A stretch of 41,518 bases of DNA from a virus, in the IMG/VR virus record IMGVR_UViG_3300045996_001167, positions 1 to 41,518 of that record. The stretch is one strand, 5' to 3'. Within the stretch, counting starts at the first letter, position 1. Every line of letters starts with the position of its first letter. Shown here piece after piece: positions 5,213 through 26,996 of the stretch. A program made the position numbers and the translations under genes. Below the pieces are notes generated by a model. The model made no database searches. It was not told the origin of the DNA and worked only from the letters and a program-made list of their open reading frames with translations.

Positions 5213-5659
5213 TCAGCGGGGCTTGAATCGCCCCGCGTACATGCAGGGTCGGGAGCAGAAGCGCCTGCGATGGGCCTCGGCTCGGGGCGCGAGGAACTTG
5301 TCTCCGCATTCAGCGCAGGTGAGTTCTTCCGCCCTGACCCGCCCGCGGCGGTTGGGCGCGGTGATGTAGTGCTCGTCGTCCCGTACCCCATCGGTGCGGT
5401 GACGACGGGTATTGCATCGCGTGCAGGCCGGTACGAGGTTGGTCACGTCGTTGTTCTGCGGGTCGTTGTCGAGATGGTCGACCGTTAGCGCAGTCCCACC
5501 CCCGCCTTGGCGTCGAGACCACGAAACCGTCTTGCCGCACCAGTGGCACGAGTGTGTCCCCGGGCCTATCACGTCGTAGAGCACGGCCCGGTGTTCTAAG
5601 ACAGTTCCCCAGGCCGTGGCGAGAGGATGGTCCGGGGCGAGCAGAAACCTATACGCCAT
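5213..5659 (-). CDS. HNH endonuclease, free-standing, opposite strand
   Basis: 148 residues from the ATG at 5659; a longer frame would run into the next rightward gene. A first zinc pair CHWCGK near residue 40 is followed by the HNH core LTVDHLDNDPQNNDVTNLVPACTRCN, with the catalytic His in DH and the Asn in TNLVPAC. A second Cys-rich module (CAECGDKFLAPR, RFCSRPCMYAG) resembles the C-terminal DNA-binding finger of phage homing endonucleases. It is convergent with the capsid gene, ending three bases from its stop. Probably a mobile homing endonuclease rather than a packaging factor. Confidence 0.88.
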   Translation of the reverse strand: MAYRFLLAPDHPLATAWGTVLEHRAVLYDVIGPGTHSCHWCGKTVSWSRRQGGGGTALTVDHLDNDPQNNDVTNLVPACTRCNTRRHRTDGVRDDEHYITAPNRRGRVRAEELTCAECGDKFLAPRAEAHRRRFCSRPCMYAGRFKPR

Positions 5660-5690
5660 GCGTTGATGATAGACGAAAGCGAGGCGAAAC

Positions 5691-5951
5691 ATGGCAAGCA
5701 AGGATCCGTCGGTCCGCACCCTCCGGGGTGCGGCACCGGAGTACCCGGAGGGCACGCACCCTCCGCACCCGCCGTCCGAGCAGGACTGGGGCCCGTACCG
5801 GTTCAGCTACAGCGACATGCCGGCGGAGGACAAGCCGGACGAGTCCACCGTGGCGCAGGTCATGGACTCCGACCCGCTCGAGGACGACGCCGAGAAGGCG
5901 CGCGAGCAGGACCAGAAGGACGCGGCGAAGGCCGCGAAGGCCAGCAAGTAG
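5691..5951 (+). CDS. Hypothetical acidic structural-region protein
   Basis: 86 residues. Pro-rich N-terminal half (PEGTHPPHPPSEQDWGPYRFSY) and acidic, Lys-rich C-terminal helix (DAEKAREQDQKDAAKAAK). RBS GAGGCGAAAC lies upstream of the ATG. The stop codon overlaps the GTG of the next gene (TAGTG). No family recognised; in this position a head-decoration or connector accessory is plausible but unsupported. Confidence 0.7.
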   Translation: MASKDPSVRTLRGAAPEYPEGTHPPHPPSEQDWGPYRFSYSDMPAEDKPDESTVAQVMDSDPLEDDAEKAREQDQKDAAKAAKASK

Positions 5952-25842: not shown

Positions 25843-25975
25843 GAGGCTCGACTAAGGAACAGTCACGCGAGAGGGTGCCATAGGCTGCTAGCCGCTCCGC
25901 GATGCGATCGGCGCGTGAAGCTAGCTGAGCCCTCTCAATGCGTTGCCCGGGTTCGATCCCCGGCTGGGCCGCCTC
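25843..25975 (+). ncRNA. Cloverleaf-like structured RNA with a perfect T-arm
   Basis: In the 295-base gap after the endolysin, paired elements appear in tRNA order. GAGGC (25843-25847) pairs with GCCTC (25971-25975). GACT/AGTC closes a 7-base loop (25850-25864). A long arm GAGAGGG (25869-25875)/CCCTCTC (25930-25936) encloses GCTAGC/GCTAGC (25887-25892, 25920-25925). A T-arm CCGGG-TTCGATC-CCCGG lies at 25947-25963. A 7-base spacer before the closing strand and the 54-base middle arm exclude a normal tRNA. It could be a tRNA-like RNA, a relic, or an attP core copied from a host tRNA end; no integrase is seen. Confidence 0.45.
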
Positions 25976-25983
25976 CACAGATC

Positions 25984-26012
25984 GCCCCCGCGCTGCGTCA
26001 ACAGCCGGGGGC
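25984..26012 (+). ncRNA. Bulged hairpin copy 1, upstream of holin-like gene
   Basis: 7-bp lower stem GCCCCCG/CGGGGGC (25984-25990, 26006-26012), one bulged C, 4-bp upper stem GCTG/CAGC and hexaloop CGTCAA, followed by ACGGC. The same architecture recurs at 26415-26443 with different but complementary lower-stem bases. The rest of the gap to 26103 shows nothing except an RBS. Confidence 0.7.
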
Positions 26013-26103
26013 ACGGCGGCGAGCACTCGTACGCGAACACTCAAGTGGCGCACCCCTCGTGCAACCGCGCCAAGCATGACCGACTCACGTAAGGAGAACC
26101 CGT

Positions 26104-26397
26104 ATGACCCCCGTTGACCCTGCCCCTGCCCCGGGGCCGCCGTACGCGAACAAGGCGGTCATGGCCGCCATCGCGTTCGTGGTGCTGGTGATCCAACGGT
26201 ACTTCCAGGACCGCACGTTCGACCTGTCCGAGGAGGGCATCACGGCACTGATCGGCGCGGTCGGCACGCTCAGCGTGTGGGCGGTGTCGAACTACAAGCG
26301 GGTGTTCGGCAGCGACCGCGGCTACAGCGTCGTCGAGCTGGTAGTCGGGGTGCTGCTGGTCCTGATCCTCGCGGTCGTTCTGCTGCGCCTGCTGTAG
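26104..26397 (+). CDS. Holin-like membrane protein
   Basis: 97 residues. Two or three hydrophobic segments are visible: NKAVMAAIAFVVLVIQRYF (about 17-35), GITALIGAVGTLSVWAVSNY (about 45-65) and VVELVVGVLLVLILAVVLL (about 76-95). The N-terminus is short and Pro-rich. This fits small actinophage holins located just after the endolysin. Holins make the membrane lesion that releases the endolysin. RBS AAGGAG. No sequence motif is diagnostic for holins, so the call is by topology and context. Confidence 0.68.
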   Translation: MTPVDPAPAPGPPYANKAVMAAIAFVVLVIQRYFQDRTFDLSEEGITALIGAVGTLSVWAVSNYKRVFGSDRGYSVVELVVGVLLVLILAVVLLRLL

Positions 26398-26414
26398 GAT
26401 TGCAGGAACTAATC

Positions 26415-26443
26415 GGGGCCGCGCTGCGCAAACAGCCGGCCCC
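26415..26443 (+). ncRNA. Bulged hairpin copy 2, downstream of holin-like gene
   Basis: Lower stem GGGGCCG/CGGCCCC (26415-26421, 26437-26443), bulged C, upper stem GCTG/CAGC, hexaloop CGCAAA, then ACGGC. Relative to copy 1, three adjacent lower-stem pairs are flipped from C-G to G-C, while loop, bulge and upper stem are kept. It lies directly before the RBS of the HNH gene. Confidence 0.7.
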
Positions 26444-26465
26444 ACGGCAACGGAGGTATGGTCCG

Positions 26466-26996
26466 ATGCAAGGCGCAGGATACTGCGAGTGCGGATGCGG
26501 TGGCGAGACCGCGATAGCCACCCAGACAAGACGTCGGTACGGGCATGTGAAGGGGCAGCCCGTCCGGTTCATCCAAGGTCATGCGGCCAAGAGAACACCG
26601 CACGCCTACGAGGTCCGGGACTGTGGCTACACGACGCCGTGCTGGGTGTGGCTGCGGTCGACCAACGCGAACGGCTACGCCCAGGTCAGTCGTTGGCCGG
26701 AGCGGGGGATGCGTCTCGCATATCCCTTGTTCTGGACTGAGAGGTATGGGCCGGTGCCGGATGGCTTTGAGCTGGACCACCTCTGCCGTAACCGTGCGTG
26801 CGTGAGGCCCGACCATCTTGAGCCGGTCACGCACGCGGAGAACATGCGGCGATCGAAGCGCTCCAAGCTGACCCACGCGCAGGTGCGGGAGATTCGTGCG
26901 TCGTCCGATGACGCGCTCATACTGGCTGAGCGTTACAGAGTGTCTCGCGACACCATCTACAACGTGCGCAGCGGCTATTCGTGGAAGGACGCCTAA
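26466..26996 (+). CDS. HNH endonuclease with N-terminal zinc finger and C-terminal HTH
   Basis: 176 residues from ATG 26466 with CGGAGG nine bases upstream. N-terminal CECGCGGE knuckle, then the HNH core WTERYGPVPDGFELDHLCRN with RACVRPDHLEPVTHAEN. The core His is in DH, and the following RACVRPDHLE is the standard HNH_3/His-Me arrangement. The C-terminal part (LTHAQVREIRASSDDALILA, YRVSRDTIYNVRSGYSW) is a NUMOD-like HTH used by homing endonucleases for DNA binding. Sense-oriented, in the lysis operon. Confidence 0.9.
   Translation: MQGAGYCECGCGGETAIATQTRRRYGHVKGQPVRFIQGHAAKRTPHAYEVRDCGYTTPCWVWLRSTNANGYAQVSRWPERGMRLAYPLFWTERYGPVPDGFELDHLCRNRACVRPDHLEPVTHAENMRRSKRSKLTHAQVREIRASSDDALILAERYRVSRDTIYNVRSGYSWKDA

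Follow-up and report, generated by a model that had tools for sequence, protein, structure and literature searches.

Two bulged hairpins and their HNH genes

The window, meaning the whole 41,518-nt stretch of viral DNA that was analyzed, contains two 29-base hairpin elements, copy 1 at positions 25984-26012 and copy 2 at 26415-26443, where the original prediction had placed them. The two copies have in common a 7-bp lower stem, a single bulged C, a GCTG/CAGC upper stem, and a downstream ACGGC, and their hexaloops are CGTCAA and CGCAAA. The lower stems are GCCCCCG/CGGGGGC versus GGGGCCG/CGGCCCC, such that pairs 2-4 exchange C-G for G-C; the twin geometry thus stands as it was described, including these three swaps. 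The fold as drawn forms on the plus strand in both copies, and the minus strand adds one pair. Predicted folding energies were -29.9 kcal/mol (minus strand) versus -23.4 (plus strand) for copy 1 and -24.8 versus -24.2 kcal/mol for copy 2. A covariance model trained on 88 relatives (copy 2 included, copy 1 excluded) gave scores of 51.2 bits (E 8e-10) for copy 1 and 46.4 bits for copy 2, the next-best site in the 41.5 kb record scoring 14.5 bits. The twin hairpins are far beyond chance.

To the right of copy 2 lies a plus-strand gene (26466-26996) encoding a 176-residue homing-type HNH endonuclease (HNH_3, E 5e-14; zf-His_Me_endon; PHROG HNH), preceded by a GGAGG Shine-Dalgarno (SD) sequence at 26452-26456. 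Copy 1 abuts a plus-strand remnant of the C-terminal half of an HNH endonuclease, GGEHSYANTQVAHPSCNRAKHDRL, at 26003-26083 (PF01844, E 6e-6, profile positions 21-47 of 47). The original prediction had the hairpins bracket a holin-like gene and offered timing of lysis as one possible role. The pair does flank that open reading frame (ORF, 26104-26397), but only because two endonuclease cassettes flank the holin; each hairpin belongs to the HNH gene or remnant on its right, and in relatives the gene behind the hairpin mostly encodes an HNH or GIY-YIG nuclease. A connection with the holin or with lysis was therefore dropped. A third HNH endonuclease ORF lies on the minus strand at 5213-5755 with no strong covariance model match nearby, and thus the element is not found on every HNH gene of this phage. 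Just to the left of copy 1 is a tRNA-like T-arm at 25946-25963 (CCCGGGTTCGATCCCCGG, then CTGGGCCGCC), which resembles a tRNA 3' end or an attP core. ARAGORN called no tRNA at this T-arm, and neither a tyrosine nor a serine integrase was found in the record.

Relatives of the hairpin and the genes behind them

Relatives were collected by pattern scans of IMG/VR. A scan with the exact core returned at least 119 stretches, and in two further scans either the loop, or the bulge position plus part of the upper stem, was left free; the matches listed are lower bounds. After removal of duplicates, poorly paired matches, and hairpins followed by plus strand T runs, at least 179 unique relatives remained. 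Both the lower and the upper stems covary strongly: 96% of cells are paired, both sides have changed in 7 of the 11 pairs, and none of 500 shuffles reached the observed covariation score. The remaining four pairs are invariant, but these were fixed by the search patterns. Indeed, the patterns fix much of the core and hence core conservation is overestimated in the collected leaders. The bulged base is C in nearly all non-terminator matches, including those where the pattern left the bulge free. The pattern scans thus gave relatives with covariation well beyond the original pair, which upholds the original view that the compensatory changes mark a selected RNA.

The element lies between genes in Pseudanabaena phage Pan2, Propionibacterium phage Anatole, Arthrobacter phages Pitbull, BillyTP, and Hestia, Microbacterium phage Footloose, and Mycobacterium phage Charm, with one to three copies per wholly searched record. 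It is also present in contigs of Actinobacteria, Myxococcota, Planctomycetota, Chloroflexi, Aeromonas, and a picocyanobacterium. Most exact-core matches in the genome contig scan lacked the stem and look like chance, as is likely for a Citrobacter IS4-transposase match that lies within coding sequence and lacks the outer stem. No Rfam 15 family, HEARO/omega RNA included, reached its gathering cut-off at the elements in the record or in the relatives, and no identity with a tRNA or an Rfam RNA was found. In Acetobacter phage phiAP1 (L123, 3000-3030) and in loci L037 and L101 the core sits in a hairpin that has T tracts on both sides and precedes a small membrane-protein gene; these hairpins are likely two-way terminators. 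The 19 hairpins followed by plus strand T runs had no clear asymmetry of wobble pairs (5:3).

A start codon with an SD sequence mostly follows at a distance of 44-58 nt, counted from the final base of the 5' lower stem. Among 89 non-redundant downstream ORFs there were 32 HNH_3, 14 HNH, and 12 HNH_5 matches (overlapping counts), plus NUMOD, AP2, GIY-YIG, T5orf172, and endonuclease VII domains. When ORFs were scanned singly, 21 of 30 (~70%) encoded HNH or GIY-YIG nucleases, and about 30% of the sampled downstream genes had no recognized nuclease domain. Annotated HNH genes follow the element in phages Pitbull, BillyTP, and Footloose, and likewise in Pan2. The non-nuclease genes encode primases, excisionase-like proteins, plasmid replication (rep) proteins, and proteins of unknown function. 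Note that HNH loci gathered by protein similarity, which give a fairer view than do scans that fix the core, mostly lack the element, and only some contain any such gene.

The strand of the RNA and its predicted promoter

The strand was assigned by the wobble pairs, since an apparent A-C pair on the plus strand is a wobble pair on the minus strand, whereas G-T on the plus strand is a wobble pair on the plus strand itself. In the 179 bulged hairpins collected, plus strand A-C outnumbered G-T by 75 to 16 (p 1e-10), and the ratio was 29:6 in the non-redundant set. A second hairpin, which lies over the ribosome-binding site, gave 49:4 towards the minus strand (p 4e-11) when pairs were counted outward from strictly Watson-Crick cores. 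The minus strand was the more stable in 74 of 90 leaders and the plus strand in 14 of 90 (p 4e-13), whereas random 75-mers showed no strand difference; the z-score of the second-hairpin region was -2.6 on the minus strand versus -0.7 on the plus strand. Most leaders fold on the minus strand into two stem-loops, a 5' stem-loop (SL1) with the complement of the SD sequence in its loop followed by the bulged hairpin (SL2). Given these wobble pairs and stabilities, together with the leftward -10 element and T tract described below, comparative sequence evidence assigns the conserved structured RNA to the minus strand. The plus strand hairpin as first drawn does not hold up as the conserved RNA, and the suggested protein-binding or processing site of a sense mRNA gives way to an apparent Rho-independent terminator at the end of a short antisense RNA. 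Other sense-strand readings discarded after the strand tests were a cis-regulatory leader with an SD hairpin, a put-like antitermination RNA, a ribosome-bypass element, an insertion boundary, and a riboswitch.

A motif in the nucleotide sequence, ANNNTA(Y)C, recurs around +8 to +17 in ORFs of unrelated families, in no single reading frame. Read on the minus strand the motif is (G)RTANNNT, a -10 element. A leftward TANNNT was present at +4 to +26 of the ORF in 83 of 90 leaders versus 81 of 1421 control ORFs (5.7%) with starts drawn from the same contigs, and TANNNT plus G at -14 was present in 61 of 90 versus 26 of 1421. When 86 leaders were aligned on the best site, T was found at -7 in 97% and G at -14 in 72%, values that are partly by construction because those bases helped pick the site; the TANNNT count is the fair test. 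The -35 element is at background level in most leaders, with a few good matches. On the sense strand no upstream -10/-35 promoter is conserved, nothing upstream of the hairpin is conserved beyond an A/G tract, and no fixed spacing to the upstream stop codon was found (median 24 nt, wide spread).

That A/G-rich stretch before the hairpin on the plus strand is a T/C-rich tract after the hairpin on the minus strand. The 10 nt following the hairpin contain a mean of 4.9 T on the minus strand versus 1.3 on the plus strand, and thus on the minus strand the family has a GC-rich hairpin followed by a T-rich tract, as in intrinsic terminators. The median predicted length of the antisense RNA is 66 nt, and the order of its parts (-10 element, SL1 over the SD sequence and start codon, terminator upstream of the gene) would place it opposite the translation initiation region of its target. 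A bulge makes an antisense helix easier to open and more resistant to RNase III, and YUNR is a U-turn motif that speeds antisense pairing. In the scan with the loop left free, the antisense loop starts with UU in 42 of 54 leaders and fits YUNR in 32 of 54.

Within the window, copy 2 has all the parts of such a gene in what looks like a weak form. On the minus strand it reads GGGGCCGGCUGUUUGCGCAGCGCGGCCCC, with a bulged G, and would be the terminator stem-loop; the assignment draws on its fold, its 46.4-bit score, and the minus strand wobble asymmetry of the family. The predicted SL1 is at 26448-26468 (minus), spanning the bases complementary to the GGAGG and to the start codon, and is seen in the fold of minus strand 26403-26468 and in the family evidence for SL1. 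The putative -10 element, TATCCT at 26477-26482 (minus), is weak, having no G at -14 and no clear -35 element, and the tract after the terminator, GATTAGTTCC (26405-26414, minus), is only modestly T-containing. The whole predicted antisense RNA would be about 62-66 nt (26405-26470, minus) with its ends placed by prediction, and would cover the SD sequence of its presumed target, the HNH gene. A strict promoter/terminator scan of the 41,518-nt record gave no promoter and no terminator at the hairpins, because the scan demands both hexamers plus an unbulged stem with 5 T. Given the TATCCT lacking G at -14, the modest T tract, and the empty strict scan, the copy 2 antisense gene may be weak or decaying. 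Copy 1 (minus strand) lacks SL1, a start codon, and a -10 element and its T tract is likewise weak; its 51.2-bit score and the abutting HNH fragment mark it as a relic, the terminator stem-loop of an antisense gene that has decayed, beside an HNH gene that has lost its 5' half.

Several other loci deserve mention. In Mycobacterium phage Charm the element precedes gp34 (L400, 2058-2480), which is annotated as hypothetical, matches the PHROG 733 excisionase (E 2e-67), and adjoins a serine integrase; the predicted antisense RNA there may bear on prophage excision. Prim-Pol primase genes are preceded by the element in viral contigs L015, L018, L028, L075, and others, a group with good leftward -10 sites. 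At 1476-1519 of the 1532-bp E. coli plasmid p4_050613 (L440), the same terminator core, a strong T run, and a TATAAT pointing leftward together lie over the start of an apparent HUH-type rep gene (HLHG motif), likely a copy-control antisense RNA of this tiny plasmid. Two Rhodococcus/Prescottella plasmids (L441, 1460-1536 and L442, 1470-1538) carry two hairpins with the same CTGCGCTAACAG tip and no clear bulge upstream of a helix-turn-helix regulator gene. Four of the HNH loci gathered by protein similarity (L383, L384, L395, and L411) have the antisense layout with other hairpins that lack the conserved core, and therefore the layout may be wider than the bulged-hairpin family.

Proposed antisense control of endonuclease genes and its precedents

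The explanation we favor, and think very probable, is that the hairpin is the Rho-independent terminator of a predicted antisense RNA gene of 60-75 nt, encoded across from the translation start of a mobile endonuclease gene, with repression of translation the probable outcome. Comparison across the family argues for the minus strand, for two hairpins, for the -10 element and T tract, and for the association with endonuclease genes. A promoter with its -10 element just inside the ORF would drive the RNA leftwards from near the complement of the start codon. Once transcribed, the RNA would offer anti-SD bases in the ~7 nt loop of its 5' stem-loop, the GC-rich bulged terminator hairpin coming next. 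It would pair with the endonuclease mRNA by loop-loop contact and then as a full duplex, and this would block ribosome binding or trigger decay of the duplex. The presumed benefit is that levels of a toxic nuclease stay low other than on arrival of the cassette in a fresh genome. Judging from RNA-OUT, which represses the IS10 transposase, pairing with the mRNA and blocked initiation seem the most likely action.

It is quite unlikely that the element is instead a sense-strand leader of the endonuclease mRNA acting as a protein-binding site, a riboswitch-like RNA, or a ribosome docking element. The hairpin does form on the plus strand as well and always ahead of the gene, with the SD sequence in the loop of a second hairpin, but the wobble pairs and stability fit the minus strand, the -10 element is leftward, the T tract is found only on the minus strand, and upstream of the hairpin only the A/G tract is conserved. 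Could the leftward RNA instead be a partner of the encoded nuclease, serving it as a guide or scaffold like omega RNA, and not an antisense repressor? We judge this very improbable. The tight link to HNH genes and the conserved terminator core would suit such an RNA, but the element also lies over GIY-YIG, primase, excisionase-like, and plasmid rep genes, there is no Rfam match and hence no HEARO, and the 5' half is exactly the complement of the ribosome-binding site, the place expected for an antisense regulator.

The promoter and terminator are the best-conserved parts, as they would be if the element were purely a transcriptional device that collides with or insulates from read-through, with an inert RNA as by-product. 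Since the 5' stem-loop is conserved as a minus strand structure, which interference does not need, we give this view very little credence. That the element acts as DNA, either as a cruciform or as a recombination or homing site of the mobile cassette, is almost certainly wrong. In its favor are the mobility of the cassettes and the imperfectly palindromic core, but a cruciform would not prefer A-C over G-T on one strand, and the -10 element and T tract fit transcription.

Little is known outside T4 of how phages protect themselves against their own free-standing homing endonucleases. A common antisense RNA gene over endonuclease starts would, if real, be a general answer to how carriers avoid harm, and would add an RNA family to the phages and prophages of Actinobacteria, Proteobacteria, Cyanobacteria, Myxococcota, Planctomycetota, and Chloroflexota. 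We tentatively raise a broader view, which we hold to be possible rather than probable: across many bacterial phyla, the homing endonucleases of phages, along with other selfish genes, might share a common, horizontally spread antisense module resembling a type I antitoxin. The cassette would be nearly silent once established and fire in an unprotected genome, and the conserved terminator loop would allow cross-talk between cassettes. The question can be tested with common laboratory phages that infect M. smegmatis or Arthrobacter. More generally, hairpins conserved ahead of phage genes can be features of the opposite strand. In the open-licence literature we found no account of an antisense RNA lying over a phage HNH gene; earlier work may have been missed.

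The closest functional precedent is RNA-OUT of IS10/Tn10, a 69 nt antisense RNA opposite the start of a mobile-DNA enzyme gene and complementary to its translation initiation region (PMC5006887). The predicted RNA is likewise short and opposite the start of such a gene. The two differ in that RNA-OUT belongs to one IS family whereas the present element is associated with phage HNH and GIY-YIG genes of many hosts, and in that the 3' end of the predicted RNA is a conserved, bulged terminator hairpin of its own; no sequence relation to RNA-OUT was seen (no Rfam match). The CfrI antisense RNA of cyanophage S-PM2, cited in PMC12197685, also lies beside a phage homing endonuclease gene but concerns psbA, being located between psbA and the endonuclease gene; that paper does not present it as an RNA of 60-75 nt covering the ribosome-binding site of the endonuclease. 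Translation of the T4/Aeh1 homing endonucleases (I-TevI, segB, mobE) is held low by RNA structure, with hairpins that sequester the ribosome-binding site, and the seg43(25) hairpin belongs with these (PMC2988022). Unlike the predicted antisense RNA, these are sense-strand structures of single genes with no shared family. In cluster K mycobacteriophages the SAS/ESAS elements, an inverted repeat plus an SD-bearing GGGNNNNNNNCCC, are found just before start codons; the repeats did not support RNA pairing and the authors proposed DNA-binding sites (PMC3203893). The layout is similar and the sequence unrelated: the SD hairpins of our leaders have varied stems, and the SAS consensus GGGATAGGAGCCC was not found at their ribosome-binding sites. 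In the published SAS GGGATAGGAGCCC itself, a short stem located behind the inverted repeat holds a 7-nt SD loop (PMC3203893), and SAS/ESAS may hide an antisense gene of similar layout.
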